Source: Gammaproteobacteria bacterium (GTDB lineage: Bacteria; Pseudomonadota; Gammaproteobacteria; Xanthomonadales; SZUA-36). Taken from it: 64,000 bases of DNA. Positions within the stretch are counted from its first letter, which is position 1; each line of letters begins with the position of its first letter. Below the pieces are notes generated by a model, which worked only from the letters and a program-made list of their open reading frames with translations, had not been told where the DNA came from and did no database searches. Positions 21,634 through 46,585 of this stretch are shown one piece after another. The position numbers and the translations under genes were made by a program. The stretch lies in the NCBI GenBank assembly GCA_021772915.1, contig JAJFLB010000046.1, positions 1 to 64,000 on the forward strand, given 5' to 3'.

Positions 21634-22797
21634 ATGAATTTTGAGTTAAGTGAAGAGCTCCAGATGTTTCGGGATTCGGTACACAAGTGGGTTGACCAGG
21701 AGTGTCCGAAGGACTGGTGTCGGGAACTGGAAAGACGTGAGCATGAGTACCCACAGGAATTGTGGGACAAACTCACCGAGGCAGGCTTTCATGGAATCGG
21801 TATAGATGAAGAATACGATGGCCTGGGTGGTGACATCATCTTTCAAGCCACGTTCATGCGCGAGTTTGCCCGCAATGCGGCCGGCCTTGGCTGGGTTTGG
21901 GGCATCACGTCTTTTTCCGGGGCCAAGTCGATCGGCTTTTACGGCTCGGAGGAACAAAAACGTGAGTTTCTGCCAAAAATGGCTGCTGGTGAACTGAAAA
22001 CTTCCATCAGTTTTTCTGAACCCGGTGGCGGAACGGATTTGCTCGGTGGCATGAAAACGAGTGCTGAAAAAGTTGATGGTGGCTGGGTCATCAACGGTGA
22101 AAAAATTTGGAGCACCGGTGCCGACAGTTCCGACTACCTGCTGTTGATCGCACGCACCGAAAAGAACGTCGAGCGAATATCTGACGGCGTTTCATTATTC
22201 TTTGTGCCCACCGGATCGGAAGGTATTACCGCCACGCCATTGCCTAAACTCGGTATGCGCGCACTCAGTTCCTGCACGGTCCTGCTGGAAGACGTTTTTG
22301 TCCCGGACAAGCTGATGCTTGGCGAAGAGGGCAAGGTTTGGAAAGACACCACCAAGACATTGAATAACGAACGCATCATGATGTCCTCCATGTGTCTCGG
22401 GATGATCGACGGCGTGCTGGAGGATGCCGTTGATTACATGAATCAACGCAGAGCGTTTGGCAAACTGATCGGTGAGTTCCAGGCCTTACAGCACACGGTT
22501 GCCGACATTGCCATGTGGCAGAAGCAGACTGAACTGATGCTGTTTAACACCGCCTGGCTACAGTCAAAGGGCCTGCCATGTGCGATGGAGGCGGCCATGA
22601 CCAAAACCATTGCCTCGGAATATGCCTGTAAAGCAGCGGATCACGGAATTTCCATCCTCGGGGGTATGGGTTACTCCGCGGAGACCGATATGCAACGTTA
22701 CTGGCGTGATGCAAGACTACTGCGCATCGGCCCCGTCAGTAACGAGATGGCCCGCAACATGATCGCGCAAGGTCTGGGGCTGCCGAGGGGATTTTAG
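21634..22797 (+). CDS. acyl-CoA dehydrogenase
   Basis: The start is set at the ATG at 21634, where the family N-terminus MNFELSEELQMFRDSVHKWV begins. The 387-residue protein has the complete fold: GFHGIGIDEEYDGLGGD, the loop TSISFSEPGGGTDLLGGMKT with VDGGWVINGEKIWSTGADSSDY, then RRAFGKLIGEFQALQHTVADIA and the C-terminal ILGGMGYSAETDMQRYWRDARLLRIGPVSNEMARN. The last block aligns with the region that places the catalytic base in short-chain-type enzymes. Reaction: FAD-dependent 2,3-desaturation of an acyl-CoA. It is monocistronic; an inverted-repeat element begins at its stop codon. Confidence 0.94.
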   Translation: MNFELSEELQMFRDSVHKWVDQECPKDWCRELERREHEYPQELWDKLTEAGFHGIGIDEEYDGLGGDIIFQATFMREFARNAAGLGWVWGITSFSGAKSIGFYGSEEQKREFLPKMAAGELKTSISFSEPGGGTDLLGGMKTSAEKVDGGWVINGEKIWSTGADSSDYLLLIARTEKNVERISDGVSLFFVPTGSEGITATPLPKLGMRALSSCTVLLEDVFVPDKLMLGEEGKVWKDTTKTLNNERIMMSSMCLGMIDGVLEDAVDYMNQRRAFGKLIGEFQALQHTVADIAMWQKQTELMLFNTAWLQSKGLPCAMEAAMTKTIASEYACKAADHGISILGGMGYSAETDMQRYWRDARLLRIGPVSNEMARNMIAQGLGLPRGF

Positions 22798-23248: not shown

Positions 23249-24040
23249 CTAGGGTGTAAATTCACGCAGCCGTTCCGAAGTCGGGTCCACTTCTTCACGC
23301 AGGATTCTCAGCTCTTCATCCAAGGGCGCATCGGTGATTGCGATTTCACCATCTGGCAACACGAGTTCGAAGCCGGTGGCCTCGCGGACCTGATCCAGAC
23401 TCACCCCAGGGTGCAGACTTCTGATCTGCATGGACCTGGACTCGAGATTGAAATCCATGACACAAAGGTTTGTAACACATAATTGAGGTCCGCCGGGAAG
23501 ACCCAAGTCTGCGCGGTGGTTGCCACCGTCACCCCAGCCGATACCGGAACGAAAATCCAGTTTTTCCACGAATATTCTGGGGTTATGTGTCGTGCTCCAC
23601 AAGTAGATACGTGGGATCATGCAACCCAGGTCCGCCATGCCGCCACCACCGGGTAAACGCACCTTTGGCGTGTCGTAGGGGCCGATCACTGAGTTGTTGA
23701 CGTTTCCAAACCGGTCAATCTGAGCCCCGCGAAAGGCAAATGTATTGTAGTGCCCACCCTGTGCGTACGCCCAAAAATCAAAGGGCGAGTTGGCCAACAT
23801 GGCTGCGCCATCCCAGATTGAATCCGACAGGGTTGACTCTCCGAGCTGTGCAGGTTCGGCGTCTATGGCGATGGATGAAGCCGCCCACACCAGCTCTGGC
23901 GCATGGGTTTTGCGCGCCAGCAGGTAGGCACATACCGGAATAAACGAAACCGCACCGTTAAATGCCCGTGTCGTGTTGTCGAATGCCCTGGCCAGGGTGA
24001 CCACCATTAACTCATCAATGGAATAGGTCCCGGGATTCAC
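23249..24040 (-). CDS. IpdB-like CoA-transferase/hydrolase, beta subunit
   Basis: A 263-residue class I CoA-transferase beta-subunit homologue of the IpdB type. It starts DELMVVTLARAFDN, continues with NGAVSFIPVCAYLLARKTHAPELVWAASS, the AQIDRFGNVNNSVIGPY motif and VRLPGGGGMADLG, and closes with LHPGVSLDQVREATGFELVLP. In mycobacterial and proteobacterial steroid degradation IpdAB opens the last carbocycle of a CoA-linked ring intermediate by hydrolysis instead of transferring CoA. Which activity this one has is not decided here. GTG start overlapping the alpha-subunit stop (GTGA). Last gene of the eleven-gene operon. A second pair lies at 43.5-45.2 kb. Confidence 0.88.
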   Translation of the reverse strand: MNPGTYSIDELMVVTLARAFDNTTRAFNGAVSFIPVCAYLLARKTHAPELVWAASSIAIDAEPAQLGESTLSDSIWDGAAMLANSPFDFWAYAQGGHYNTFAFRGAQIDRFGNVNNSVIGPYDTPKVRLPGGGGMADLGCMIPRIYLWSTTHNPRIFVEKLDFRSGIGWGDGGNHRADLGLPGGPQLCVTNLCVMDFNLESRSMQIRSLHPGVSLDQVREATGFELVLPDGEIAITDAPLDEELRILREEVDPTSERLREFTP

Positions 24041-24927
24041 GTGGAGGTTCTGCGAATTCGCATGAGTGTGCTGGTGCCGCCTTGTGCGCCCATGAACTCA
24101 GTGTGTGAGACGGGTCCCGTTATACGTTGCTCCCAGAATTCCCCGAACTTTTCCGGTTGGGCTGCGGCCTTCGAGTAGACATCGTAGAACTCCGTGTCGT
24201 GCGTGTATTCGGGAAAACATGAATTTGGATAAGCCCCCCAGGGTATCTCAACAATGGCGTCCACCATGAACCTTGGATAAGTGGTTCGATGCGGCTCAGC
24301 AAGGAAATCTCTGTGCGAGATGATTCTTTCAGTACTTACGATGGTGGTTTCCGCCGCGTTCACTATTTCGTTGTCCATCCATACCAGCTTTGGATTGACG
24401 CGGACATTACCCAGGGAATCTGCTTCATTTGCATGCACCAGTGCGACATCCACGGGCAACGGTGTGCATGCGATGTAGGACTCTCCACTCACCTGGTCAA
24501 CCTCAAGACGGGTGGTGTCGGGGTGTAGCTTGATGACATCGGTGCCCAGACCGGCCTTGGTGGGTATAAATGGTACGTGGGTTGCGGCGGCCCTCAAGCG
24601 GGCGATCAACAGGTACTCGGAGTATTCTTCCAGTTCACAGCTGCCGGCTTCAACGGCTTTACGGAAGTTCGGTGCCAAACCCATTCCTTCAAAACTGACA
24701 AGGCCGGAGACCACGCGGCGTACACAACCACCAGCGATCAACCAGTCCACGCCCAACCCATTGACGATCGCCACCACAACCAGGTCTTTCTTGCCCTGGC
24801 GCACCAGTTCACGCACCAGCGCCATGGGTGTTGAGTTCATGGACAGGCCACCCAGTGCGATGGTGGCGCCGTCCGGTACCCGTGCTATGGCCTCTTCAAT
24901 ACTGCTTGTCTTTTTCATTCGGGACAC
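24037..24927 (-). CDS. IpdA-like CoA-transferase/hydrolase, alpha subunit
   Basis: A 296-residue alpha subunit of the glutaconate-CoA-transferase/IpdA family. Recognisable blocks are VPDGATIALGGLSMNSTPMALVRELVRQG, the middle FIPTKAGLGTDVIKLHPDT, and VDVALVHANEADSLGNVRVNPKLVW, then GGYP-like PWGAYPNSCFPEYTHDTEFY. It pairs with the beta subunit encoded next. The GTG at 24927 is preferred because a GGGAG site lies six bases before it; the ATG at 24918 is possible. The gene follows the LLM oxidoreductase by 12 bases in the same operon. Confidence 0.88.
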   Translation of the reverse strand: MSRMKKTSSIEEAIARVPDGATIALGGLSMNSTPMALVRELVRQGKKDLVVVAIVNGLGVDWLIAGGCVRRVVSGLVSFEGMGLAPNFRKAVEAGSCELEEYSEYLLIARLRAAATHVPFIPTKAGLGTDVIKLHPDTTRLEVDQVSGESYIACTPLPVDVALVHANEADSLGNVRVNPKLVWMDNEIVNAAETTIVSTERIISHRDFLAEPHRTTYPRFMVDAIVEIPWGAYPNSCFPEYTHDTEFYDVYSKAAAQPEKFGEFWEQRITGPVSHTEFMGAQGGTSTLMRIRRTST

Positions 24928-24939
24928 CGGGTTCTCCCA

Positions 24940-26022
24940 CTACCAGCGACAGGCCGCGGGAATTGCCGGGTGGTCAATGGGCGGATACTTTTTGTGCAAT
25001 GGTTGAACGACTTCTTCACCGAAGCGCAATATTTGCTCACGCGTGGCTTCAAGAGATGGGCCGGTGACCATGCGAAAGCGCATCGTGAAGTAGTCGACTC
25101 CCAGTTCTTCGTGGTACCACTCCAGCCGCTCACGGCATTGGGCTGCTGATCCTATAACGATATATTTGCGTACCGAATCCTCGGTGATTTTCTCCGGTGT
25201 ATTCAAATCAGGGTGATGGGCAAGGATGCCCTGCTTGCAATAAAACTGCAGGTCCGCAACGTAATGTGGGCCGAACTCCTTCACGGCCTGTTCATAGCTG
25301 TCAGCCATCCAGCCATCTCGCATCAGCACGATAAACGGCTGCTTGCCATGTGCTTGTGCACAGGCGCGGTAAGCTCCGGCCTGCTCGTCCCAGGTTTCGC
25401 GCTGGATCGGAAATGGGTCACAGGTCCACGCATCCGCATAACTCCCGCAACGTTCAATCGCAGGGGGTAACTGGCCGCTACCCCAGAATGGGAAACGGGG
25501 TTGCTGGTAGCTACCCGGTGATAGCAGCCCGTCACGCACCTCGTAAAAATCGCTGTCCCAGTCGAAGCGTTCACCCCTGGATGTCAGCGCTTTTTCGATG
25601 AGCCTTACATTGTCGAGGTAGCGACCCAGCATTCGTTCAAGTGGAATACCGACTTGCCCCCAGTACGCTTCGTGATAACCCCGGCCCCAGGTCATATACA
25701 ATCGCCCGCGTGAGAGGTTGTCGACAATGGCGCATTGCTCAGCCAACTGCATCGGGTGGTACAGCGTATTGACCAGACAATACGAACCCAGTGCAACCTT
25801 GTTGGTTTCCCGGGCCAGGATCATCAACAAGTTCATGGGGGAGCCAAAATAAGACTCGGTACGATTGTGACGGTCCGGTACCTGGATGGAGTGGAAGCCG
25901 GCCTGTTCGGCCAGGATCCCTTCTTCGACCATTGCATCCAGGGTGGTAGAAACATCCTCACGACCCGGCATCGGTTGGTCATACTTGCCCTTGTTTGTGT
26001 CGATCAGGTAACCAATTCTCAT
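24940..26022 (-). CDS. LLM-class flavin/F420-dependent oxidoreductase
   Basis: A 360-residue luciferase-like TIM-barrel protein. It has the N-terminal MRIGYLIDTNKG strand, EGILAEQAGFHSIQVPDRHN, the NLLMILARETNKVALGSYCLV strand, VDNLSRGRLYMTWGRGYHEAYWG (substrate/cofactor loop) and the C-terminal LGVDYFTMRFRMVTGPSLEATREQILRFGEEVV. Members use FMN (with a reductase) for monooxygenation or F420 for hydride transfer; sequence alone does not settle this. F420 genes nearby make the latter credible. Its ATG overlaps the stop of the preceding lipocalin-like gene (ATGA). A related protein sits at 36218-37237, divergent from this operon. Confidence 0.88.
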   Translation of the reverse strand: MRIGYLIDTNKGKYDQPMPGREDVSTTLDAMVEEGILAEQAGFHSIQVPDRHNRTESYFGSPMNLLMILARETNKVALGSYCLVNTLYHPMQLAEQCAIVDNLSRGRLYMTWGRGYHEAYWGQVGIPLERMLGRYLDNVRLIEKALTSRGERFDWDSDFYEVRDGLLSPGSYQQPRFPFWGSGQLPPAIERCGSYADAWTCDPFPIQRETWDEQAGAYRACAQAHGKQPFIVLMRDGWMADSYEQAVKEFGPHYVADLQFYCKQGILAHHPDLNTPEKITEDSVRKYIVIGSAAQCRERLEWYHEELGVDYFTMRFRMVTGPSLEATREQILRFGEEVVQPLHKKYPPIDHPAIPAACRW

Positions 26023-26945
26023 GGTCCCGGCACCCCCCAGTTTTCCGGTCGGTGGGTGTTATTCTTCCAGAAGAAATTCGCGTAGCCGTAAGCTGTGCGC
26101 CCTTCCGACTCGTATTCGGTGGCACAAAAGTAGTGATAACCCTGTTTGTTCAGTTCCTGATGAGAGATATCGAAAGCATTCAACACGTGGGCAGTGGCCA
26201 AGAGCTGTTGCCCACAACGGGTCTCGAGTTCAACTGCAAACGACTCAGGTGTCTGGTTTATTGATGCGTACCGGGCGTCCAGGTGGGATCTCTGCAGAAA
26301 TGCGTTGTCCCCGCCCTGGTAAACGTAGCCAAAGTGAATATCCCGGCCGTCATCCAGGCACAACTGGAACACGTTAAATGCAAACTTCTGGTCAAACTGT
26401 GCCGAAGCCCACAACCACTTCCTGATACCTGCACGTCTTCCCCAGCCCCAGGCATGGTCCCGCACACCCACGCCATTGATCGTGTAGCTCTCGTCACCCA
26501 CTCTGGCCAGGCCCGTATAACGACCCTGTTGCTCATAATGGTGACTGTTGGAATCTGCAAGGGCAGCCTCGGAATCTGCCCAGTAGTAGGCAGCGTGTAT
26601 GGCGTTGAACTCCAGTTGCAGTCGGCAAAAACCGTCATCGAACAACATGGTCCAGCTTTTGAACGGTTTACGTTGCTGAAAACAAAGGGGCCCGAAATCC
26701 AGTCGTTCCTCACCGATGTCCTGCGGGATATTGAAGTCCCAGCGGGTAAAGCGTGCCAACAGTCGGTCACCCTTCCACAAGGCGAAGATGACATCGCCCG
26801 TTTCCTGGTTGGGGTGGACCCCGGAGTAACCAAATCCGGACAGCCCGCTGGCAGCGTCAATGAAGTCGAAATAATAAGCTTCACGCCAGGCTTGTTCGGC
26901 CGCGGTCGTGTGAATCAGGTCGTCACGGGTTCTGAGCTTGGTCAT
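26019..26945 (-). CDS. lipocalin-like protein of unknown function (paralogue 1)
   Basis: A 308-residue protein with many alternating beta-strand patterns and the motif NGVGVRDHAWGWGRRAGIRK at about residues 160-180, followed by WLWASAQFDQKFAFNVFQL. The G-x-RDHxWG motif is reminiscent of the hydroxyneurosporene-hydratase (CrtC)/AttH-like double-lipocalin superfamily and of DUF7064/7065 proteins; I am not certain of either. No catalytic residue is assigned. A second copy of similar length, encoded at 30600-31529 in the same operon, shares WWREAWYFEF/AWREAYYFDF near the N-terminus and the RDHxWGWG motif. Nine bases separate it from the preceding PEP-enzyme gene. Confidence 0.6.
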   Translation of the reverse strand: MTKLRTRDDLIHTTAAEQAWREAYYFDFIDAASGLSGFGYSGVHPNQETGDVIFALWKGDRLLARFTRWDFNIPQDIGEERLDFGPLCFQQRKPFKSWTMLFDDGFCRLQLEFNAIHAAYYWADSEAALADSNSHHYEQQGRYTGLARVGDESYTINGVGVRDHAWGWGRRAGIRKWLWASAQFDQKFAFNVFQLCLDDGRDIHFGYVYQGGDNAFLQRSHLDARYASINQTPESFAVELETRCGQQLLATAHVLNAFDISHQELNKQGYHYFCATEYESEGRTAYGYANFFWKNNTHRPENWGVPGP

Positions 26946-26954
26946 GATCCAGGC

Positions 26955-27878
26955 TCAGGGGTCCACGGTCCGGTTTTCGGATGCAGGGACGATTCCAAGA
27001 TCCGCTTCCGCACGGATGACTTCAGCGAGCGTGGATTCAAACGCATCAGCTGCGACCGATATACTGCTGAGCCCGAATTCGATGAGTTTGCGGATCAGTT
27101 CCGGTTGCCGTGACGGCGCATCACCGCATATGGATACCGGCAGGTCATGCTTCCGGCAGTTTTGTACTATGTGCTCAATGCCCGCAAGTACCGCCGGGTC
27201 TTGAGTATCAAATTGTTCGGCCATTTTGTGGCTGTCGCGATCGATCCCCAGTATGAGTTGAGTCAGGTCATTTGAGCCAATTGAGACTCCGGATACATGT
27301 GGCAGAAACTGCTCGATCAACAGGATGTTGGATGGAACCTCGGCCATCATCCACAACTCGAACGCGGGGTTTTCAAACAGACCTTCATCCATGATCAACT
27401 GCCGGCAGTTTTCGAGTTCACCTGGGAATCGTACGAATGGTAACATCAGCCGGACATTGTCCAGACCCGAATCGATGACGCGTTTTACGGCCCGCAGTTC
27501 GAGCCGGAAACTCTCCGCATCTTCGAGGTACCGGCTGCAGCCACGAAAACCCAGCATTGGGTTCTCCTCCTGCTCCTCAAATTCGTCTCCTCCCTTCAAT
27601 CCGGCGTACTCGTTGGACTTCAAATCAAGTGTCCGGTAGATAACCGGGCGTGGAAAAAATGCCTTGGCCACCTTGGTCACACGATCCGAGAAAAACGCGA
27701 TGAAGGCCTCTGCACCGTTATCGGCGATGAGTTTTTGGGGGTGAACACCCATTGACAGGGCGAGAAACTCGGCACGCATCAAGCCCACGCCATCAGCGGG
27801 AATGGTGGCAAATTTTTCAGCCAGTTCGGGTATGCTGAGATTCAGCAGGATCTGAGTTTGTGTTGCTGGTCGCTCCAT
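26955..27878 (-). CDS. PEP-synthase-type PEP-binding TIM-barrel subunit
   Basis: A 307-residue stand-alone version of the C-terminal domain of PEP synthase/PPDK. Conserved elements are GLMRAEFLALSMGVHP near residue 33, the Arg-bearing FPRPVIYRTLDLKSNEYAGL, ENPMLGFRGCSRYL, VRLMLPFVRFPGE, VSIGSNDLTQLILGIDRD and the catalytic-Cys motif VSICGDAPSRQPELIRKL near residue 255. All residues expected for PEP/pyruvate binding appear present. The His-bearing swivel domain is encoded by the overlapping upstream gene (ATGA), and no ATP-grasp domain is found nearby. It may transfer phosphate between PEP and a substrate through phosphohistidine; the direction and acceptor are unknown. Confidence 0.88.
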   Translation of the reverse strand: MERPATQTQILLNLSIPELAEKFATIPADGVGLMRAEFLALSMGVHPQKLIADNGAEAFIAFFSDRVTKVAKAFFPRPVIYRTLDLKSNEYAGLKGGDEFEEQEENPMLGFRGCSRYLEDAESFRLELRAVKRVIDSGLDNVRLMLPFVRFPGELENCRQLIMDEGLFENPAFELWMMAEVPSNILLIEQFLPHVSGVSIGSNDLTQLILGIDRDSHKMAEQFDTQDPAVLAGIEHIVQNCRKHDLPVSICGDAPSRQPELIRKLIEFGLSSISVAADAFESTLAEVIRAEADLGIVPASENRTVDP

Positions 27879-28216
27879 CAGTTTGCGAGGAAAATCTCCC
27901 CCTCCGCATTGAAGTTAACGGTACAGCCATCGAGTTCACCTTCGTAATCTATGTTGCTGCCCATAATGCAGGCGAGATCGAATTCACGTGCAACAATGGC
28001 AAGATGCGAGGTAGCGCCACCCAGGGTGCACATGACACCCTTGATCTTTGGAAACAAAGGCGTTACGGCAGTTGCAGAGGCTTCGCGGGTAAATACCACG
28101 ATCTCGCCAAGATCTTCCTGCATTAACTGGAGCACATCCGGAATGCTTGCGATCACCCGCAGTGTGCCCGAGCAACCTTTGCCTGAGGTCACATTTCCCT
28201 GTCCGATTTTTCGCAT
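27878..28216 (-). CDS. PEP-utilising mobile (phosphohistidine) domain subunit
   Basis: A 112-residue protein corresponding only to the swivelling phosphohistidine domain of PEP-utilising enzymes. The motif GVMCTLGGATSHLAIVAREF at about residues 72-91 contains the phosphorylated His (TSHLAIVARE). It starts with GQGNVTSGKGCSGTLRVI, the normal entry to this domain (VxGxxxSPGxAxGxV), so it is a complete domain and not a broken gene. Its stop overlaps the next gene's ATG, so the two subunits are made together in the order mobile domain then PEP-binding barrel, as in fused PEP synthase. The ATP-binding part that normally comes first is missing. Confidence 0.88.
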   Translation of the reverse strand: MRKIGQGNVTSGKGCSGTLRVIASIPDVLQLMQEDLGEIVVFTREASATAVTPLFPKIKGVMCTLGGATSHLAIVAREFDLACIMGSNIDYEGELDGCTVNFNAEGEIFLAN

Positions 28217-28251
28217 TGCTACGCTCCTTGGTTTTTACCCGTGCAGGGTAC

Positions 28252-29412
28252 TCAGGCCACCACCGGCCAGAAAAAGTCGTCATCAGTTGTGGCCATATAG
28301 TTCCAGATAGACGGGGGCTGATCCTGTGCCAGCAGCTCGTCCAGCAGCTGGTGGGCCGCATCCTCGAACTCACTCCGAATCCTCTCATCCCAGGCCTGGC
28401 TGTCGGGTAGAGAGTTAAAAAACAACCTGAAATGATTGGCAAAAAGTTGTACGCCGTATTCTGCTTTGTAACGTGGTGACCACTCTGTGGCCTTCAGGAA
28501 TAATTCGATTTGTGCGGCTGCTGCACAGGATTCAATATGTTCTGCCTCCTCATGTGGGACCGGCACAATGCTATTCTCATTGTTGCGTGTAAACAGACCT
28601 TCCGCGAGTACGTGGGGTGCGATATCCGGCGCATCCCACCGAATACCTCCAAACATGTCGAAGTGCACCCGGACCCCGGAGATTCGTCTGACCAGGACCA
28701 GGTTCGCGTAAGGGTTTTGTGCCTCGGTAGCGGCCCAGGGCAGAAAGTCATTTTGCAGATCAGTAAACTCAAGCATGACGATTTGCTCACCTCCACCCAC
28801 GGTATAGGGTCCGTGTGCGAAAAGACCGTCACGCTGCTCGCCGTGAAGCATGAATATATACAGTTCCAGGGTGGCTGCCAAACGCCGTAAGCGTGAATGG
28901 TCTTGCTGGCTTGTGGGTTCGATGCGGGTCTCCAGCCACTCAACCTGGTTGTCTGGCAGGATTGGCTGACCACCCATGTCCTGATCTGCGAACAACAGGC
29001 CATCCGAGCGGTACGCGCGGCAGGCACGTTGCCAGAAATCAACCACCAGCAAGGTGTCGTCCACTTTTTCGTCTGCGTATGGCTGTCCACGGTGCAAACC
29101 CTGATCCAGCAGAATCTGTTGGCGTGCACCCAGGTAACTGCACATCAGGATGGACAATTGCAGGTAGTAGGGTCGCGAACACAGCCGCCGCATACTCCGG
29201 CCAATGTCCTCCGGTGAGACATGTTGCATCAACTCACGCAGCAGGCTTGGTGCACGCTCGTAGTAACAGTACCAACCTAGAGATGAGCGGCGTGGTACAT
29301 CGAACAGCACGGACCGCAAAAGGGCACGGTTTTCTGATCGCATGAAAGCCTTCTGTCGGTCACCAAACTGCTTAATGCAATCATTCAGCTGATCTACACC
29401 GAAAAAACTCAT
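28252..29412 (-). CDS. unrecognised protein, paralogue B
   Basis: A 386-residue, largely helical soluble protein that I do not recognise. No signal peptide, membrane segment or P-loop is seen. Striking blocks are SSLGWYCYYERAPSLLRELM near residue 43, SMRRLCSRPYYLQLSILMCSYLGAR, LRRLAATLELYIFMLHGEQR near 195 and GLFAHGPYTVGGG. The same blocks occur in the neighbouring 396-residue protein, so the two are diverged duplicates, perhaps subunits of one complex. It lies 35 bases before the PEP mobile-domain gene and its ATG overlaps the 396-residue gene's stop. Context suggests a partner of the PEP-type phosphotransfer enzyme. Confidence 0.75.
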   Translation of the reverse strand: MSFFGVDQLNDCIKQFGDRQKAFMRSENRALLRSVLFDVPRRSSLGWYCYYERAPSLLRELMQHVSPEDIGRSMRRLCSRPYYLQLSILMCSYLGARQQILLDQGLHRGQPYADEKVDDTLLVVDFWQRACRAYRSDGLLFADQDMGGQPILPDNQVEWLETRIEPTSQQDHSRLRRLAATLELYIFMLHGEQRDGLFAHGPYTVGGGEQIVMLEFTDLQNDFLPWAATEAQNPYANLVLVRRISGVRVHFDMFGGIRWDAPDIAPHVLAEGLFTRNNENSIVPVPHEEAEHIESCAAAAQIELFLKATEWSPRYKAEYGVQLFANHFRLFFNSLPDSQAWDERIRSEFEDAAHQLLDELLAQDQPPSIWNYMATTDDDFFWPVVA

Positions 29413-30599
29413 ACGGGTACACCGCCAGTGTGCTCAAGGGGTGAGAAGACCGGTCCTTCGGTGGTCGCGATATGTTGCAGAACCAGTGGTTTCTCACGGC
29501 CGCTGTACAGATTCTCGAGATGCTTTTCGATGGACTGGTCGAAACAGTCACGGACCTGTTGGCCGAATTCGTCACCAAACCCCAGTTGGTCGGCAAAATT
29601 CTTGAGTAAACAGGCGTACAGGTCTGCACCATATGCGATGCGATAACGATCGTCCCAGTCTATAACCTTGCGATACAGGTCCAGCTGCGCGTTGCCAGCG
29701 GTCTCGGTCAGTTCGGTAATTTCCTCGTCTGGCAGTGGCCGATAATGGCCGTTTTCAACCACGAATACTTCTTCTGCCACGATGTTTGGGGCAAAGTCTG
29801 CAGGCTCGGTTGCCATTGAACCGAATAAAACAATTTTTGATTGCACATCACGTAAACGGATTACCCAGGCAAGGTGGTCGCGGCGCGGCTGGGTTTGCAA
29901 TCGTGCCCAGGGATAAAAGTTCTCACGCAGGCCAATCAGCTCTCTGATCACCATGGAATCACCATTTGCCAGGGTATAAGGGCCATGATGAAATACACCG
30001 ACCCGGGCTTCTCCGTGCAAGATGAAGGTGTACAGTTCCAGGGTAGCAAGCATGCGGCGAACCCGGCGCTTGTGGCTGGGTGTCAAGTCGTCACGCAGGC
30101 AGTTCTCCAGGTCGGCCACCAAGGCCGTTTTAATGATCGGTATGCTGAATCCCGCCTCATCCGGCAACAGCAGGCCATCGTTCCTGTAATTACGGGCCAC
30201 ATCTGCCCAGAAACCCATTACACTGGCCACCTCCTCCACATTATCACGGCTCACCTGTCCATTCAGCCGTGCCTGTTCCCGGCCCACCAGGTAGCCCAGT
30301 GCCAGTGAATTCAGATGCACATAATTCGGCCTCGAGCATAATTTCTTCATGCCGTTGCCAATGCTCTCCTCATTGGCGTGCACTTTGAGGGTGCGCACCA
30401 GGGTGGGCAGGTTTTCATAATAGCAGTGGCTGCCCAGCACCAGTCTTCCCGGAAGATTAAACATCGGTGACGTCATTTCTGATCGTTGCTGATCGCGAAA
30501 GAAGTGCTTAACACTCTCACCAAATACGTGGATGTGGTGATTGGTCTCAACCAGGTCTACGCGGGTTGCTATTCCCAAATTGGATGCGACCTCAGTCAC
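29409..30599 (-). CDS. unrecognised protein, paralogue A
   Basis: A 396-residue protein of unknown family, paralogous to the 386-residue product next in the operon. Shared blocks are LGSHCYYENLPTLVRTL, GMKKLCSRPNYVHLNSLALGYLVGR, VRRMLATLELYTFILHGEAR and VGVFHHGPYTLANGD. The conserved HGExxxGxFxHGPY segment, with His, Glu and Tyr, is the best candidate for an active or binding site. Starts with GTG directly after the stop of nothing else: the neighbouring lipocalin-like gene ends at 30600, immediately upstream. No ATP-grasp, kinase or transferase motif was found. Confidence 0.75.
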   Translation of the reverse strand: MTEVASNLGIATRVDLVETNHHIHVFGESVKHFFRDQQRSEMTSPMFNLPGRLVLGSHCYYENLPTLVRTLKVHANEESIGNGMKKLCSRPNYVHLNSLALGYLVGREQARLNGQVSRDNVEEVASVMGFWADVARNYRNDGLLLPDEAGFSIPIIKTALVADLENCLRDDLTPSHKRRVRRMLATLELYTFILHGEARVGVFHHGPYTLANGDSMVIRELIGLRENFYPWARLQTQPRRDHLAWVIRLRDVQSKIVLFGSMATEPADFAPNIVAEEVFVVENGHYRPLPDEEITELTETAGNAQLDLYRKVIDWDDRYRIAYGADLYACLLKNFADQLGFGDEFGQQVRDCFDQSIEKHLENLYSGREKPLVLQHIATTEGPVFSPLEHTGGVPV

Positions 30600-31529
30600 T
30601 CAGTTCACCTCGAGGTGGTGGAAACGATCAGCCTCGCTGGTGAAAGCCCAGTTCATGACACCATGCCCAATACGTTTGTCATGGTGGTACTCACCCACGC
30701 TGAACAGCATGTGGTCGTTGCGGTGAAGCCAGCGGTGTGAGGTATCGAGGATACCCTGTGGGTGACCTGTGTACCTAAAACTGCGTCCGAGCTTGTCCCT
30801 GGCAAGGACATTGACCTGCTCAATGGTCTTCCAGCGTTGCTCGCTCCATTCGACATCTACCGTTACATCACTTAGCAGGCTCAGTTCCCCGTCCTGATAC
30901 AAATAACCACACAATGTTTGTTTACCATCATCGAATTGCTGCACCGCAATGTTGACGACACAGTTTTCATCGAAGGCTGCCCACATGATCAGGTAACTCT
31001 GCCAGTGTTTGCGGCCACCCCATCCCCACATACGGTCACGGAAACCCAGGGCGTCGATCGCCAGTTGTTGGTCCCCGACCCAAAAGTTACCCCGGTACCG
31101 GCCCAGCTGGTCAAAGTGGTGGCTGCCGATCTGTGGATCGTCGCTGGTTTCCAGCCACAGATTGGCCGCCGCCCAACTGAATGGAGGGTGCACCGCATCA
31201 AACAACAAATCAGCCGAAACATCACCGGCGTCATAACGAATCCGCCATTGCTTCAGGGGTTCAATCTCTTCCAGCTTCATTGGACCGAAGTAAAGTCGCT
31301 GCGAGACGGCTTCGGGTTCGACGTGGAAGTCCATCTTGCAGATTTCATGAACTCGCCGTTGCTGGTGAAAAACCGCAGCGTTAATGTCACCAATGGCCGC
31401 ATTTGGAAAAACCCCCTGATAGACCTGAAATTGTAATTCCACCTTTGGGTCGAAGAATTCAAAATACCAAGCTTCCCGCCACCAGGGGTCGGCAGTGGCG
31501 GCGTGGAGACCATCACAGTCCGGATCCAT
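30600..31529 (-). CDS. lipocalin-like protein of unknown function (paralogue 2)
   Basis: The start is set at the ATG at 31527-31529, 13 bases after the HyuB-like stop; this gives 309 residues, matching the 308 of its paralogue at 26019-26945. A longer frame from 31658 would overlap the HyuB-like gene. Shared features are WWREAWYFEFFDPKVELQFQ with a following G-x-FPNAAIGDINA segment, FGPMKLEEIEPLKQW and the DALGFRDRMWGWGGRKHWQS motif. Function unknown; fold resembles double-lipocalin CrtC/AttH-type proteins by motif only. Both copies in one operon suggest two related hydrophobic ligands or a heteromer. Confidence 0.6.
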   Translation of the reverse strand: MDPDCDGLHAATADPWWREAWYFEFFDPKVELQFQVYQGVFPNAAIGDINAAVFHQQRRVHEICKMDFHVEPEAVSQRLYFGPMKLEEIEPLKQWRIRYDAGDVSADLLFDAVHPPFSWAAANLWLETSDDPQIGSHHFDQLGRYRGNFWVGDQQLAIDALGFRDRMWGWGGRKHWQSYLIMWAAFDENCVVNIAVQQFDDGKQTLCGYLYQDGELSLLSDVTVDVEWSEQRWKTIEQVNVLARDKLGRSFRYTGHPQGILDTSHRWLHRNDHMLFSVGEYHHDKRIGHGVMNWAFTSEADRFHHLEVN

Positions 31530-31542
31530 CGTTGGTAACGGC

Positions 31543-33849
31543 CTACCCACTGTTTGCAACCTGGGTTGAAGCCAGTGAAATGTTCTGAAAGTCAACATCG
31601 TCCGGTCTGCAAAAACTGCCCTGTAGCAGCAGACCGCAACCCGGACAGAAGTATTCACGGTACTCGATCAGATCGTCGATAAACTGGCCTGGGTCGATCG
31701 GTGCCAGACCCACTTCTTGCACTTCGGTCACCCTCTTGAGGCAACCGGACTTGTAGTTATTATCTACGGCCTCAATGCGGGTTCGACACTTGGCGCAGCA
31801 CCAGGCCTGGTCATCATCACTTGCGGAAATAACCAGGCCCTCGGAGACCTGTATGTCCCGGGGTGACTCGGGCATGGTTTGTAGTGCCTGGTCTCTGGAC
31901 CCGGCCAGTCGATCGTGGATTATTTCGGCCCTCAATGCTGTGGTTTTCTTGGCATCGACTGCTCCATTGTCATCCAGGCAGACGCCGTATTGCCGTTCTC
32001 CGGAATCACGACTGACATATAAGTTTTCGATATCGGAGGCCACGTGTTGAGGATCTCTTTCCAGTGGATCGCCATAACCGGATGCGGCAGTCCAGGCCAG
32101 CGAGAATACGTCATCACTTTGCTGTACAACACCCCCGGTTTTGGGTGACACGTTGAGGTGCTCTCCGTCAATTTCCTCGAGGGCTGTGGGCATGTTACCT
32201 GTAGTCGCGGTTGCTTTCCTGACTGCCGCATCACGTACCATGCTGAAGCGTGTTCTCGATGTTGGGCTGCCCCCAAACAAACCCGGACCCGGAATGATCG
32301 TGTGTCCCCCTGTGGTGTAGTGGGTCATGGAATCGCAGTCGTTTAGTACGTAGGCGATTTCAGCCGCGTTTCCACCCCGGAATTTGCCACTGCCACCAGA
32401 ATCCGGGATTTCCTTCCTCCACAGATAGAGCAGCGGATAAAACAACTCATTATCCTCGACATTTGGCATTGTGCTTTGCAAATCCCATGGCCAGCCGCCC
32501 GTGTTCACGCCATCCCTCCAGGAGAGCGCACCGAGGGCGCCACCCACAGGGTCGAGGAGGAAAGAAGCGTAGGGGTCACCACGCTGGTCAATACCTGCAA
32601 TGGCGTCTATCGGAAAACACAGGGTCCCCATGCAGCTTTGCACTTCTTTTTGCAGTACTTCATCGGTGGAGCAGTAAAGCATGTGCGAGATAACCATGCC
32701 CGCCAGACCAATGGTCTGTAACAGCACGGTTGGTGGTGCTGAAACCACACCGGCCGGGAATTTGGCACAGGTCAGTGTTCCCGGTGTTGGTTCGAATTCC
32801 ATGTGACGGTATGCACCCTCAATGACAAACATCTGGTCAAACAGCATTTGCGCAGAAATCATGGAGGCAATGGCGCCTTTCCAGGCCACGGAGGCACAGT
32901 TGATTGAGCCAATTTGGGGCGCCGTGCCCTCATTGTCGAAGATCAACTTGTTGCCTTTCTTGGTCAGTCGCAGGACATTGCGGTACACGTGGCGGTCCCC
33001 TTCACGTGCCAACTCTACCCAGGTTTCTTCGGCCCAGGTCCCGTCCGGAATCGTATCCAGTCGCTTGAGAAAAGCCGTTTCGGAGTTGTCCTGTAGTTTT
33101 TTCATGACGCCCTTGACGACCTTGGGTCCGTACTTATCAATCAATTGCTGCATCCGTTCACGTGCAACATTGCAGGCGGTGATCTGTGCGCGCAGATCCA
33201 GGGCAACGAGGTCGGGCATCCTCGATCGTCGAATGTACTCTTCCTCAAGGTCTTTGCGCAGCTCACCTTGCTCCACAATTCTTATCGGTGGAATACAACC
33301 GGCTTCCCAGAAGACATCCTTGGAGATAGGGTTGAAGGCGCCGGGGGTTGTGCCACCCAGGTCCCACTGGTGCAAGGTGTTGGCAAACCAGCAGAACAGT
33401 TCTCCCTTCCAGAACAGGGGTGCAAATATACACACATCGGCCTGGTGTATGGCGCCGATCCATGGATCATTGGTCAGAAAAATATCACCGTCCCTGATTC
33501 CGGGGTTTTCGGAACGATTTTCGAGGGTCCACTTGACTGCTGAGCCACTGGCCGACGACAGGTATTGCAGGAAAGGCCCGAAAAACACGAAATCACCGCT
33601 CTCATCCAACAGGCAAGGGTTGAAATCGTGTCCATATGCAGCGATTGGTGATCCGGAAACCTTCAACAGGGTATTGCCCTGCTCCACGTTGATGTTCCAC
33701 ATCGCATAGCGGATAACCTCAAAACTGATCGGATCCAGCTCGTCAGCGACCGATGTGTGCAGTTTGATCGACGGATCAATTTTCAGTGGGTCAGACGGAA
33801 TATAGGGGTAGACTTTCCCGTCCCAGTTAATTTTTGCCTGAGCAGTCAT
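31543..33849 (-). CDS. HyuB-like carboxylase subunit fused to gamma-like zinc ribbon
   Basis: A 768-residue hydantoinase-B/oxoprolinase family protein, closer in style to acetone/acetophenone carboxylase subunits. The HyuB part spans about residues 35-600, with DPISFEVIRYAMWNINVEQG, GDIFLTNDPWIGAIHQADV, and the GGSGKFRGGNAAEIAYV region near 490. The last 100 residues add a separate domain with CCAKC near 687 and CPGC near 736, a zinc-ribbon resembling the small gamma subunit of acetone carboxylase. Such enzymes use ATP to phosphorylate and carboxylate ketones. Its ATG overlaps the HyuA-like stop (ATGA). Confidence 0.85.
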   Translation of the reverse strand: MTAQAKINWDGKVYPYIPSDPLKIDPSIKLHTSVADELDPISFEVIRYAMWNINVEQGNTLLKVSGSPIAAYGHDFNPCLLDESGDFVFFGPFLQYLSSASGSAVKWTLENRSENPGIRDGDIFLTNDPWIGAIHQADVCIFAPLFWKGELFCWFANTLHQWDLGGTTPGAFNPISKDVFWEAGCIPPIRIVEQGELRKDLEEEYIRRSRMPDLVALDLRAQITACNVARERMQQLIDKYGPKVVKGVMKKLQDNSETAFLKRLDTIPDGTWAEETWVELAREGDRHVYRNVLRLTKKGNKLIFDNEGTAPQIGSINCASVAWKGAIASMISAQMLFDQMFVIEGAYRHMEFEPTPGTLTCAKFPAGVVSAPPTVLLQTIGLAGMVISHMLYCSTDEVLQKEVQSCMGTLCFPIDAIAGIDQRGDPYASFLLDPVGGALGALSWRDGVNTGGWPWDLQSTMPNVEDNELFYPLLYLWRKEIPDSGGSGKFRGGNAAEIAYVLNDCDSMTHYTTGGHTIIPGPGLFGGSPTSRTRFSMVRDAAVRKATATTGNMPTALEEIDGEHLNVSPKTGGVVQQSDDVFSLAWTAASGYGDPLERDPQHVASDIENLYVSRDSGERQYGVCLDDNGAVDAKKTTALRAEIIHDRLAGSRDQALQTMPESPRDIQVSEGLVISASDDDQAWCCAKCRTRIEAVDNNYKSGCLKRVTEVQEVGLAPIDPGQFIDDLIEYREYFCPGCGLLLQGSFCRPDDVDFQNISLASTQVANSG

Positions 33850-35942
33850 TGGGCGGTGGCTTCCAGTTCGATGATAAAGTTGCCACCCGGGTCCACGGTA
33901 CCGGTCGCCTTGGGTTGAACGACAATCGTGGTTTCAGGATATTCCACCACTGCGGGTCCTGTTACGATGTGACCCGGGCCCAACTGTAGCCCGGTATATA
34001 TTGGTGTATCGACCTGCTCGCCCAGTAGGGGCCAGAATACTTCCCTGGATTCGGTCCGGGGATCTTCTGTGGCGGGGCTTTGTTCGGGGATGGCCGGCTT
34101 GACCAGCTTGCCAATGGCATTGATCTTGAACAGGCCAATCTCGACACCTGCCTGCCGGTATGCGGACCCCTTTCCGTAAAACCCCTCGTAAATGTCCTCA
34201 AATTTTGCAAAAACCCCTTCCAGATCCTGTTCATCCAGCTTGCCCGGTGGTACCGGTACGGGTAGCTGATGGATCTGCATCCTGTACTTCACTTCGACAA
34301 AACGCTGAATTTCAATACGGTCCGCTGCAACTCCGTCGTCTTCCAGCTGTTGTCGTCCCTTTGTTTCCAGTCCGGAAAAGACTTCATTGATATGTTTAAT
34401 ATCAAAGGGTTGTGACAAAAGATCGCTTTTTTCATAGACATGCAGGATGTCGGCACACAAAGTGCCAAAGGCGGACCAGGCGGCTGAGATGCTGCCAAGC
34501 GGCACGACAATTTTCTCAATGCCCAGCTCCCTGGCGTATTCGCAGGCATGGGTTGGCCCCGCGCCACCATAGGAGAAAATTACAAAATCCCGTGGATCGA
34601 GACCACGTTGCAGGGTCATTTGCCGCATCAACTCCGCCATTCTGGATTCTGCAATTCTGACCGCCCCGGCGGCCAGTTCCTGTATGCTCATTTCCATTTG
34701 CTGGGCCAGGGGTTTGATGGCTTCGATGGATTTCTCTTTATCAAGTCGCATCGAGCCACCAAGAAAATTGTCAGGATTCAGATAACCCAGGATCAGGTTG
34801 GCGTCAGTGATGGTCGGCACCTTGCCCTTGCCGTAACAGGCCGGACCGGGATCAGCACCCGCACTTTCAGGGCCGACCTTCAATGTGCCGCTGATTTCAT
34901 CTACCCATAAAGTCGATCCACCGCCACTGCCAATCGACTGTACATCCAGCCTGGGCATGGAGAAAACATACTGGTTAACGATGGTCTCCGACGCTGTCAA
35001 AGGCTCACCGCCGTAAATGATACCGGCCTCGAAACTTGTACCTCCCATGTCGGTAATAATGACATTCGGGCTCTTCATCTCAGAGGCGAGAAAACTACTG
35101 CCGGTTACCCCTGCAGCGGGGCCTGAGCCGATCGTGTAAAGGGGTGCCTGTATGACTTCACTTGATGGCACGACTCCACCGGTAATTTGCAGAACAAGGA
35201 TGGGTTGGTCGTAACCGTGGGACGCTGCCCGGGTCTCGATTTTCTCAATATATGACTTCATCACCGGGCCAATAAAGCAGTTGATCACAGTGCCCACTGT
35301 GCGCTCGTATTCACCACGTTTGGCGATCAGTTCATGGGAGCAACTGACAAATACTTCTGGCGCAATTCGGTGAATCATGCTCCGCAGTTTTTGCTCATGA
35401 TCCGGGTTCACGATCGACCAAAGAAAACTGACAGCGATGGCGTCGATTTCCTGGTCCAGCAAAGACCGCACTGCCGCTTCGGCTTCAGCTTCGTTCAGGT
35501 CCAGGAAAACGGCGCCCTTCCAGTCGACCCGTTCACTGACTTCATGGATCAGGTTTCGGGCAACCAGCGGGTCTGGCTTCTGGTGTCGTGAAACGTGCAG
35601 GAGCTTCTCGATTGGCAGGCCCACGGACCGGCCTGCCGAGCGCATGATTGCAAGACTGTCCTTGTGCCCACGGGTGGTGATGAGACCGGTCTTCGCGCCC
35701 TTCATCTGCAACAGTGCATTGGTGCCGACCGTGGTGCCAAGGAACAGGTGTTCGGTGCTTTGCATCAGCTCGTCCAGGCTGATACCGATCTTGACCGCAC
35801 AGGTTTCCAGGGCATCAAACAGACCGGCAGAATAGTCATCGGGTGTGGAGGGGCGCTTGGCAATGGTGATTTGGCCGTCATGGTCGATGACCGCGCAGTC
35901 CGTAAATGTGCCACCGGTATCGAGACCACAATAGTACTTCAT
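33846..35942 (-). CDS. HyuA-like ATP-binding carboxylase/hydantoinase subunit
   Basis: A 698-residue hydantoinase-A/oxoprolinase family protein with the ASKHA-type ATPase motifs: CGLDTGGTFTDCAVIDHDG at residues 4-22, HLFLGTTVGTNALLQMKGA, IITDMGGTSFEAGIIYGGE near 295 and RGLDPRDFVIFSYGGAGPTHACE near 440. It binds and hydrolyses ATP to activate a carbonyl or amide substrate together with HyuB. First gene of the eleven-gene operon; the promoter must lie in the 275-bp AT-rich region upstream, which carries two dyads. Combined with the gamma-like domain in its partner, a ketone carboxylase is more likely than a hydantoinase; that is inference. Confidence 0.9.
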   Translation of the reverse strand: MKYYCGLDTGGTFTDCAVIDHDGQITIAKRPSTPDDYSAGLFDALETCAVKIGISLDELMQSTEHLFLGTTVGTNALLQMKGAKTGLITTRGHKDSLAIMRSAGRSVGLPIEKLLHVSRHQKPDPLVARNLIHEVSERVDWKGAVFLDLNEAEAEAAVRSLLDQEIDAIAVSFLWSIVNPDHEQKLRSMIHRIAPEVFVSCSHELIAKRGEYERTVGTVINCFIGPVMKSYIEKIETRAASHGYDQPILVLQITGGVVPSSEVIQAPLYTIGSGPAAGVTGSSFLASEMKSPNVIITDMGGTSFEAGIIYGGEPLTASETIVNQYVFSMPRLDVQSIGSGGGSTLWVDEISGTLKVGPESAGADPGPACYGKGKVPTITDANLILGYLNPDNFLGGSMRLDKEKSIEAIKPLAQQMEMSIQELAAGAVRIAESRMAELMRQMTLQRGLDPRDFVIFSYGGAGPTHACEYARELGIEKIVVPLGSISAAWSAFGTLCADILHVYEKSDLLSQPFDIKHINEVFSGLETKGRQQLEDDGVAADRIEIQRFVEVKYRMQIHQLPVPVPPGKLDEQDLEGVFAKFEDIYEGFYGKGSAYRQAGVEIGLFKINAIGKLVKPAIPEQSPATEDPRTESREVFWPLLGEQVDTPIYTGLQLGPGHIVTGPAVVEYPETTIVVQPKATGTVDPGGNFIIELEATAQ

Positions 35943-36217: not shown

Positions 36218-37237
36218 ATGAAGTTCGGTATTTTGTTCCGAATTCAGGATCCTCCCAATGCAGAGCATATCGGTCGGCGAATGCGGGAGAGCATTCGAGC
36301 GGCGCAGGTTGCAGAGCAGGCTGGCTTCGATGGTGTTTTTCTGCCCGAGCATCACATGATGGATGATGGTTATCTACCGAGTCCGTTTCCACTGCTGGGT
36401 GCCATGGCGGCTACGACTGAACGGATACATATCGGAACCACCGTTCACCTGTTACCCTTTTATAACCCGATCCAGACGGCCGAGGCTGCTGCTGTGGTCG
36501 ACCGGATTTCAGGGGGCCGTCTCAGGCTGGGTGTTGGAATCGGAAATTTTGCGCCAGAGTTCGATCTGATGGGGTTGAACAAGAAAGACCAGGTGGGTCG
36601 GTTTGCAGAAGCCATTGAGTTGGTTAAGCAGGCATGGACCGGTGAAACATTTGATTTCCAGGGCCAGTTTTTTAAGGCCAAAGGCAAGATCACACCGAAG
36701 CCGGCTGGCGCAAAGCTCTGGATCGGTGCAATGTCCGATGTGGGTGTTCGCAGGGCCGCGAAATATGGCTGTCCCTGGCCCACTGACCCACTGCACAATA
36801 TTGCTGTACTCAAACACTGGGCCGGTGTTTATCGCGAGGCTGGGTGCGAATTTGGGACCAGCGAAAATTGTTCAGTGGTGTTGCTACGTGATGGCTGGAT
36901 CGCCGATTCCCTGGATCAGGTAGAAGAGGAGTGGTGGCCATTGGTGCGTGCTGACCACTGGATGTATTTTCAGAAGGTACCGCGTTTTATTACCGCGCTT
37001 GAACCCGGGTTGGCCGGTGTGACAAGCGAACATGATTTTAAGTTTGAACGGCACAGAATCGACCGCTTCGTGGTCGGTCCTGCGGATGAGTGCATCAGGT
37101 CAATTCGGAAAATGCAGGAAGAACTGGATATGGATTATCTTGTTCTGACCTTCCGATTTGCACTTGGCCCGGACCATGAACGTCACCTCGAGTGCATTCG
37201 TCGGTTTGGTGCCGAGGTGATCCCGGCGTTTCACTAG
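36218..37237 (+). CDS. LLM-class flavin/F420-dependent oxidoreductase
   Basis: A 339-residue luciferase-like protein. It opens MKFGILFRIQDPPN, has AEQAGFDGVFLPEHHMMDDGYLPSP, TTERIHIGTTVHLLPFYNPIQTAEA, DRISGGRLRLGVGIGNFAPEFDLMG and the C-terminal RFVVGPADECIRSIRKMQEEL. Features favour the F420/FMN-dependent oxidoreductase branch; cofactor not certain. An AGGAG site lies before the ATG. First gene of a rightward operon with TetR, acyl-CoA ligase, DDN-type reductase and PQQ dehydrogenase. Related to the LLM protein of the divergent operon (24940-26022), which shares VLLRDGWIADS / VLMRDGWMADS. Confidence 0.88.
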   Translation: MKFGILFRIQDPPNAEHIGRRMRESIRAAQVAEQAGFDGVFLPEHHMMDDGYLPSPFPLLGAMAATTERIHIGTTVHLLPFYNPIQTAEAAAVVDRISGGRLRLGVGIGNFAPEFDLMGLNKKDQVGRFAEAIELVKQAWTGETFDFQGQFFKAKGKITPKPAGAKLWIGAMSDVGVRRAAKYGCPWPTDPLHNIAVLKHWAGVYREAGCEFGTSENCSVVLLRDGWIADSLDQVEEEWWPLVRADHWMYFQKVPRFITALEPGLAGVTSEHDFKFERHRIDRFVVGPADECIRSIRKMQEELDMDYLVLTFRFALGPDHERHLECIRRFGAEVIPAFH

Positions 37238-37257
37238 TGCTCCATCAAGCTCATAGC
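37234..37257. repeat. degenerate end of the CTAGTGCTC repeat
   Basis: CTAGTGCTCCATCAAG, running on through GCTCATAGC, matches about 18 of 24 bases of the end of the element at 2600-2865 in outward-to-inward direction. As at 42427, the CTAG overlaps a gene's stop codon. No opposite arm was found, so this may be a solo remnant or chance. Confidence 0.3.
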
Positions 37258-37330
37258 CCAGCATCAGCGGGACCCGGACCTTGATCTGTACGGTCCCAGG
37301 CGAGAGCACCGGGGCAAGAGCAACAACTTT

Positions 37331-37978: not shown

Positions 37979-38052
37979 CCCACGGCAACGGGATAAATAG
38001 ACTACGAATCAAACCATTGTGGATCAACCCGGATCCGCGATGAAAGTCCAGG

Positions 38053-46522: not shown

Positions 46523-46585
46523 CACTGTGTCCTCATGGCTATCGTTTCGTATCACCTGTTATCTTGCGATTTGCAGCTTCCCGGG

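Follow-up and report, generated by a model that had tools for sequence, protein, structure and literature searches.

A gammaproteobacterial operon that may couple a split, PEP-type phosphotransferase to phosphate-lyase-like proteins

An operon of eleven genes

The window, our name for the whole stretch of DNA analysed here, is 64,000 nt long and lies on contig C41 (GenBank JAJFLB010000046.1, positions 1 to 64,000) of a 4.68-Mb gammaproteobacterial draft genome that is 98% complete. It holds an operon of eleven genes at 23249-35942, all on the minus strand, in which adjacent genes share up to 4 bases or are separated by 0-35. A first-pass annotation, made by a model from the letters of the window, had proposed this eleven-gene operon with gaps of 35 bases or less, and the coordinates confirm it. 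Its family calls also stand, with Pfam backing nine of the eleven assignments; the exceptions are the two genes that it could not name, unkA and unkB.

In the direction of transcription, the operon opens with a HyuA-type subunit (33846-35942, 698 residues; Pfam Hydant_A_N, Hydantoinase_A and Hydant_A_C) and a HyuB-type subunit with a fused gamma-like domain, HyuBgamma (31543-33849, 768 residues; Hydantoinase_B and Acetone_carb_G, both above cut-off). These are followed by lipo2 (30600-31529), a phosphate-lyase-like protein with Pfam DUF7065/DUF7064, and by the paralogues unkA (29409-30599, 396 residues) and unkB (28252-29412, 386 residues). Then come PEPh (27878-28216, 112 residues; Pfam PEP-utilizers, PF00391, 8.2e-11), a stand-alone phosphohistidine swivel domain, and PEPc (26955-27878, 307 residues; PEP-utilizers_C, 5.3e-67), a stand-alone phosphoenolpyruvate (PEP)-binding domain of the PEP-synthase type. 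A second phosphate-lyase-like protein, lipo1 (26019-26945, 308 residues; DUF7065/DUF7064), an LLM oxidoreductase (24940-26022, 360 residues; Bac_luciferase, 3.2e-36), and IpdA-like (24037-24927, 296 residues) and IpdB-like (23249-24040, 263 residues) subunits, both assigned to CoA_trans, complete the operon. The lipo2 frame opens at GTG 31658, but alignment with relatives makes ATG 31529 the probable true start, and the coordinates above use this inferred position.

The counterparts of PEPh and PEPc in PEP synthase are its swivel domain and its PEP-binding domain. Compared with the genome's own PEP synthase, PEPh keeps GGATSHLAIVARE, with GGATSH as its catalytic-His motif, while PEPc keeps GLxRxEF, RxxDxKSNEY, NPMLGFRG, SIGSNDLTQL and the ICG cysteine; judged by these motifs, PEPc is an intact PEP-binding domain of the PEP-synthase type. 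The two genes overlap by one base in the window. They also occur as two genes in a related metagenome-assembled genome (MAG; contig L010, below), with an overlap of 4 bases, so that a frameshift restricted to this assembly does not explain the split. Unlike PEP synthase, the operon carries PEPh and PEPc on separate genes and lacks an ATP-grasp domain. An ATP-grasp donor within the operon was sought and not found: PPDK_N has no match in the operon or anywhere on the window's contig. The genome's three PPDK_N places all lie off that contig, in the PEP synthase, in a presumed nucleotidyltransferase/amidotransferase neighbourhood, and in a 2060-residue frame. A frame pair on contig 4 of the genome G000 (L026:5183-7515) lies at PPDK_N and swivel matches, and its neighbours read as a nucleotidyltransferase and an amidotransferase, a context unlike that of the operon. 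Among the 30 of 362 plasmid records listed for a PEPc search, the annotated ones are PEP synthases. From these features, PEP is the candidate physiological donor and would charge the swivel PEPh.

The first-pass annotation had counted two unknown paralogue pairs. unkA and unkB are 35% identical and have no assigned family, but they are not orphans (see the plasmid homologues below). lipo1 and lipo2, which it had called lipocalin-like, are 31% identical and match 25-phosphosteroid lyase, a link that it had missed. An AF2 model of lipo1 (pLDDT, predicted local distance difference test, 79.1; pTM, predicted template-modelling score, 0.78), compared with the PDB by Foldseek, returned this lyase as its five best chains (E 1.5e-14 to 1.5e-13, query TM-score 0.67-0.71); AttH, fungal pericyclases and kievitone hydratase ranked next. 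Profile A6, built from six proteobacterial copies with lipo2 among them and searched against PDB sequences to E 10, had 25-phosphosteroid lyase as its sole match (E 2.3e-7); a single Rhodococcus copy (from plasmid locus L013) used as query did not reach the enzyme in the PDB. The Asp of an R-D-[RH]-x-W-G motif is present in all 13 lyase-like copies read (11 of them distinct), and lipo2 has the version R-D-R-M-W-G. The PDB entry with bound steroid product, 9g4c, has Asn at this position, which suggests that it is a catalytic mutant and that the Asp is catalytic. lipo1 and lipo2 are the only DUF7065 genes found in their own genome, and none of 14 control genomes has one.

In Sterolibacterium denitrificans, an ATP-dependent kinase phosphorylates a 25-hydroxysteroid, and the phosphate is then eliminated to give an alkene (PMC7411048, PMC8449060). 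This kinase consists of one ATP-dependent protein of ~43 kDa that works through a ternary complex, and as of 2021 no lyase candidate had been noticed close to its gene (PMC8449060). The lyase fold, the A6 profile and the R-D-x-x-W-G motif tie the window to the kinase/lyase system (see also PMC11061730; PDB 9fzn, 9g2i, 9g4c), as would the predicted sequence of alcohol phosphorylation and elimination. Unlike the Sterolibacterium system, the window has a split swivel kinase, a PEP-type donor, and two lyase-like genes in one operon. Because the pair matches a solved phosphate-eliminating enzyme, the likely chemistry shifts from activation alone to phosphorylation with elimination, in which lipo1 and lipo2 would act on the phosphorylated alcohol and release its phosphate.

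Searches of Pfam, NCBIfam and PHROGs up to E 1 gave nothing for unkA or unkB. Against PDB sequences, unkA returned nothing, unkB three matches at E>1, and the unk profile A4 no match up to E 10. Across an alignment of 13 unk sequences, S44, R107, F192, R199, G206-P207-Y208 and P230 (unkA numbering) are invariant in every row. In known swivel dikinases of small molecules (HpeHI, CreHI, PpsAB and rifampin phosphotransferase, RPH), a phosphohistidine swivel shuttles between a donor module of the ATP-grasp type and a substrate module that resembles the rifampin-binding domain (PMC12167813). The swivel with its catalytic His is common to these enzymes and the window. Unlike HpeHI, PpsAB and RPH, the window has a PEP-binding domain in place of ATP-grasp, encodes swivel and substrate subunits on separate genes, and offers in unkA a protein without detectable similarity to HpeH in a comparison with two HpeH-like sequences.

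Relatives on plasmids and in other genomes

When 72,556 plasmid records were searched in translation, seven of them (six Rhodococcus, one Novosphingobium) turned out to encode unkA homologues, at 23-26% identity. These collapse to four distinct cluster types: L012 (a Rhodococcus oxybenzonivorans plasmid) and L014 (Rhodococcus) are close relatives, L016, L058 and L059 (R. opacus) have identical fusion and lyase-like proteins, and L013 (Rhodococcus) and L015 (Novosphingobium resinovorum) stand singly. Loci L031-L048, which matched only the swivel end of the model, were left out.

The first-pass annotation would have called the operon a chance assembly if homologues of the unknown genes proved to be scattered with no PEP-type or HyuAB neighbours. 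This is not what the plasmids show, since a swivel gene is present in all seven records; HyuA, HyuB and PEPc, however, do not accompany the family regularly. The swivel gene is fused to the unk gene or lies within 7.5 kb of it, and each record also has a PPDK_N-type gene, recognised by Pfam in L012, L013, L015 and L016 and by close or full identity to these in L014, L058 and L059. In L012, L013 and L014 a stand-alone swivel gene overlaps the unk gene or is 2 bases away; second copies in L012 and L014, and the R. opacus gene, have unk fused behind a swivel domain; and L015 has its closest swivel gene at a distance of 7.5 kb. The Ser-His of the swivel active site is kept in all 11 swivel sequences read, those of the window and L010 among them. 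Since unk homologues accompany a swivel domain and an ATP-grasp, PPDK_N-type donor in all four plasmid types, unkA and unkB are best read as putative acceptor (substrate) subunits of a split swivel kinase, which is also the simplest reading of these gene arrangements.

In L012, L013, L014 and L016, an unk gene has a lyase-like gene no more than 2 kb away, and L058 and L059 encode a lyase-like protein identical to that of L016; in all, three of the four types have such a gene. In the L012 and L015 clusters (L012:29049-34841 and L015:19533-25759), unk kinase genes stand together with genes for biotin carboxylase, PYC-type carboxyltransferase, CoA ligase and thiolase, and the Rhodococcus cluster L012 additionally holds a tyrosine-phosphatase-family gene; both are possible Hpe-like pathways of the kind discussed below. 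An extra homologous protein or domain of ~200 residues stands beside the plasmid swivel and PPDK_N genes (L012:26708-27316, L013:19505-20101, L015:27616-28233, and the C-terminal part of L016:14230-16611). Its L012 copy has no Pfam match, and no counterpart was seen in the window operon.

The family is rare among the genomes sampled. unkA occurs in 2 of 200 genomes of the order, own genome counted, and two unk profiles found 1 of 398 Pseudomonadota genomes, again the own genome, in a sample whose first scan scored up to 3 or 4 candidates per genome and whose inclusion of the family-holding genome G186 is not certain. A scan of 84,980 species genomes with the unkA/unkB alignment, which relied on two strict peptide patterns and reaches close relatives only, gave four loci in two MAGs (own-genome records possibly excluded). 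The first, CSMAG_1979, has HyuBgamma-lipo2-unkA-unkB over two short contigs, with unkA ~65% identical; no PPDK_N gene was found in this small assembly. The second, B110T1L10, carries unkA(end)-unkB-PEPh-PEPc-lipo1-LLM-thioesterase-IpdA-IpdB on contig L010, a run whose only insertion relative to the window is the thioesterase gene. Past IpdB, L010 continues with acyl-CoA dehydrogenase and FAD oxidoreductase, in the same order as the window, and then HyuA. A second contig of this MAG, L011, has the AMP ligase, TetR, LLM2, lipo2 and the unkA start. Identities between B110T1L10 and the window are 61-83%, except for the short unkA end (50%). Runs of N at L010:10453-10461 (in HyuA) and L011:3808-3817 (in LLM2) make adjacency across both uncertain, and L011 has an unrelated histidine-kinase-like stretch at its N-run. 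The sole PPDK_N gene found in B110T1L10 reads as an ordinary pyruvate phosphate dikinase (PPDK) and adjoins a frame that we take to be glyS; from this adjacency, whose taxonomic value we recall, the MAG may be an alphaproteobacterium. By the gene order shared with both MAGs, the recurrence of the operon exceeds chance, in keeping with the expectation of the first-pass annotation that conserved co-occurrence would mark a system.

Proposed phosphorylation with elimination, and the alternatives

We give roughly even odds (a probability near 0.5) to the reading that, at its core, the operon encodes a split phosphotransferase and phosphate lyases that jointly dehydrate an alcohol, by PEP-driven phosphorylation and subsequent phosphate elimination. 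PEPc would bind PEP and phosphorylate the His of PEPh; PEPh would pass the phosphoryl group on to a substrate bound to unkA or unkB; and lipo1 or lipo2 would eliminate the phosphate, leaving a double bond. The binding of the acceptor by unkA and unkB is predicted here, as is the order of the steps. One donor and one swivel would supply two acceptor subunits and two lyases, and two hydroxyls or two successive intermediates may be treated. We propose this sharing because, in the window, a single swivel and a single donor stand against two acceptor and two lyase-like paralogues, and the fetched L012 stretch has three unk proteins for one PPDK_N gene. The broader frame of the first-pass annotation, in which ATP or PEP would drive the activation of an alcohol or ketone and CoA-dependent ring opening would follow, is plausible.

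A more specific picture, which we advance tentatively, is that of a PEP-driven dehydration machine: a free swivel charged by a free PEP-binding domain, two paralogous acceptors of an undescribed family, and two paralogous phosphate lyases would together produce alkenes, as a soluble catabolic counterpart of the sugar phosphotransferase system (PTS) in which a single shared carrier supplies more than one substrate subunit. The tertiary phosphoester of the 25-hydroxysteroid has a transfer potential slightly above that of ATP, and the reaction with ATP has an equilibrium constant of 0.34 (PMC8449060). A donor stronger than ATP would thus make sense, and PEP would make the phosphorylation of a tertiary alcohol practically irreversible, which favours the machine as drawn here.

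Several observations weigh against phosphorylation with elimination as set out above. The acceptor is the first. Homology of unkA to HpeH and the rifampin-binding domain was expected and did not appear: hhalign gave 0.3% for unkA against the HpeH substrate domain, with two sequences on the HpeH-like side, Foldseek of the moderate unkA model (pLDDT 70.5, pTM 0.65) against the PDB gave no fold match better than E 0.23, and profile A4 matched no PDB sequence up to E 10. The swivel is N-terminal in the plasmid fusions, unlike in HpeH. The plasmid PPDK_N proteins have a His domain of their own, which makes the role of the free swivel there less certain. lipo1 is only 14-15% identical to 25-phosphosteroid lyase, and no lyase-like gene was found in the Novosphingobium cluster L015. 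HyuA, HyuB and PEPc had no match at E 1e-4 in any of the seven fetched plasmid stretches; with PEPc absent from all seven, the case for a PEP donor comes from the window and one MAG. Finally, HyuA is somewhat nearer caprolactamase than acetophenone carboxylase, with 418 bits for 6yra_A, which we take to be caprolactamase, against 392 for the acetophenone carboxylase gamma chain 5l9w_B, and with 558 bits for a caprolactamase-type NCBIfam model against 409 for ApcC, both under cut-off.

The alternative that survives best, and that we still think unlikely, places the operon beside the Hpe pathway of Rhodococcus rhodochrous GD02, where hydroxyphenyl ketones undergo phosphorylation, carboxylation and dephosphorylation (PMC9618137, PMC12167813), and where CoA ligation and hydrolysis also take place (PMC9618137). 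The split kinase would phosphorylate a phenolic or enolic ketone and HyuA/HyuBgamma would carboxylate it; the lipocalin-like proteins lipo1 and lipo2 would later dephosphorylate or carry it, and no alkene would form. As in the Hpe pathway, where phosphorylation stands beside carboxylase and CoA-ligase genes, genes for biotin-dependent carboxylases occur in three of the seven plasmid records with unk, which represent two of the four types, and the window itself holds a ketone-carboxylase-like enzyme and a CoA ligase. Unlike the Hpe pathway, the window has a carboxylase-like enzyme of the HyuA/HyuBgamma kind, IpdAB-like proteins, and a lyase-like pair that resembles a phosphate-eliminating enzyme. 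L013 and L016/L058/L059, moreover, have lyase-like genes, yet their fetched stretches gave no match to biotin carboxylase, carboxyltransferase, HyuA or HyuB. With lyase-like genes in three of four types and no carboxylase in L013 and the R. opacus type, gene content leads us to favour elimination. Both chemistries may be true, in different organisms.

It is improbable, in our estimate, that a PPDK_N protein with its gene elsewhere, such as the genome's PEP synthase, charges PEPh from ATP and that PEPc has another role. A PPDK_N-type protein in every unk-bearing plasmid record, and three PPDK_N places elsewhere in the window's genome, would suit such charging. PEPc, on the other hand, is intact, overlaps PEPh and stays with it in L010, and the sole PPDK_N gene found in that MAG is the ordinary PPDK beside the presumed glyS. 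We see still less reason to read PEPh, PEPc and the unk pair as a PTS-like regulatory relay that senses PEP rather than an enzyme acting on a growth substrate. PTS Enzyme I does have the same swivel and PEP-binding parts, as NCBIfam PTS_I_fam matches reflect, but these genes sit among catabolic genes, reappear beside ATP-grasp donors in plasmid clusters of the catabolic kind, and in the window stand as paralogue pairs beside the lyase-like pair. Chance assembly of unrelated genes, for which one could cite the rarity of the unk family and the absence of HyuAB and PEPc from the plasmid clusters, is effectively ruled out by the gene order kept in two other MAGs and the pairing of unk with swivel in all seven plasmid records.

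Downstream enzymes, neighbouring genes and wider meaning

HyuA and HyuBgamma have HyuA-, HyuB- and gamma-type parts in common with acetophenone and acetone carboxylases (PDB 5l9w, 5m45, 5svb). The best PDB match of the HyuB part is the acetophenone carboxylase delta chain 5l9w_A, the gamma part matches 5l9w_C, and the Acetone_carb_G domain scores 31.6 bits against a cut-off of 21. Three residues of the NDPWIGAIHQAD stretch, Asp, His and Asp, have identical counterparts in the alignment with acetone carboxylase alpha and are presumably metal ligands. Unlike acetophenone carboxylase, which has two HyuA-type chains (alpha and gamma), the window has one HyuA gene and a gamma domain fused to HyuB. 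HyuA/HyuBgamma thus appears to be a ketone-carboxylase-like enzyme, with a predicted activity of ATP-dependent ketone carboxylation.

For the IpdA-like subunit, 5mzw and 1poi outscore 6co6, which we take to be IpdAB, and for the IpdB-like subunit 1poi does so. Neither subunit is closest to the IpdAB entries 6co6 and 6con, and both are nearer to other CoA_trans members, so that IpdAB-like serves as a working name only. Both subunits have the CoA-transferase fold. The IpdB-like protein has Ser aligned to the Glu of the GctB ESG motif, presumably Glu54, the CoA-transferase Glu; this substitution makes CoA transfer a less likely activity than hydrolysis or decarboxylation.

The NCBIfam matches of the LLM oxidoreductase are all under cut-off, the best being an F420-dependent family. 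The window also encodes cofD (58656-59612) and cofE (59631-60395), both on the minus strand and over NCBIfam cut-offs, and the LLM enzymes could therefore be F420-dependent. Two further genes follow cofD and cofE. One, at 60713-62050, is FrhB-like but scores below cut-off; the other, at 62047-63855, scores over cut-off as the alpha subunit of a 2-oxoacid:acceptor oxidoreductase, and the two may form an F420-linked oxidoreductase. An F420H2-dependent quinone reductase family protein (39822-40277) adjoins a pyrroloquinoline quinone alcohol dehydrogenase (40292-42430).

Divergent from the operon, on the plus strand, an LLM2 gene, a TetR regulator and an AMP-forming CoA ligase (36218-39693, Pfam) probably belong to the pathway. 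So, probably, do the genes on the other side, an FAD oxidoreductase (19891-21282, minus strand) and an acyl-CoA dehydrogenase (21505-22797, plus strand), both assigned by Pfam and together spanning 19891-22797. LLM, HyuA/HyuBgamma, the IpdAB-like pair, CoA ligase and acyl-CoA dehydrogenase would carboxylate the resulting ketone, carry it to a beta-ketoacyl-CoA and open the ring hydrolytically. Ketone carboxylation, CoA ligation and ring hydrolysis would form a coherent route, in an order that we suggest on the basis of gene content, and the substrate to be catabolised is probably steroid- or terpene-like. Further along, 43473-50439 holds a second CoA_trans (IpdAB-like) pair, a short-chain dehydrogenase/reductase, a 3-ketosteroid-dehydrogenase-like FAD protein and a CoA ligase, and resembles a steroid-degradation cluster. 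A side-chain pathway of the Sterolibacterium type is not supported: TIGR03479 (sterol C25 hydroxylases) has 15 matches in the genome, none over cut-off (best 254 bits against 985).

The first-pass annotation knew of no described pathway with this gene set. In the open-licence PMC literature we found no PEP-dependent small-molecule kinase and no such gene combination. For the parts, the statement is too strong, since the ATP-dependent HpeHI/PpsAB phenol kinases and the 25-hydroxysteroid kinase/25-phosphosteroid lyase pair have been described. What is new is the unk acceptor family and the PEP-donor arrangement; the other pieces have relatives.

The plasmid clusters of Rhodococcus and Novosphingobium suggest a set of interchangeable parts, with ATP-grasp or PEP as donor and a lyase, a biotin carboxylase or a ketone carboxylase downstream. 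For unkA and unkB, the analysis provides a first functional reading of a protein family that Pfam, NCBIfam and PHROGs do not match, and DUF7065/DUF7064 become testable as phosphate lyases. If the proposed chemistry is true, catabolic phosphorylation of small molecules would extend from ATP to PEP, and phosphorylation followed by elimination would dehydrate alcohols beyond sterol side chains.

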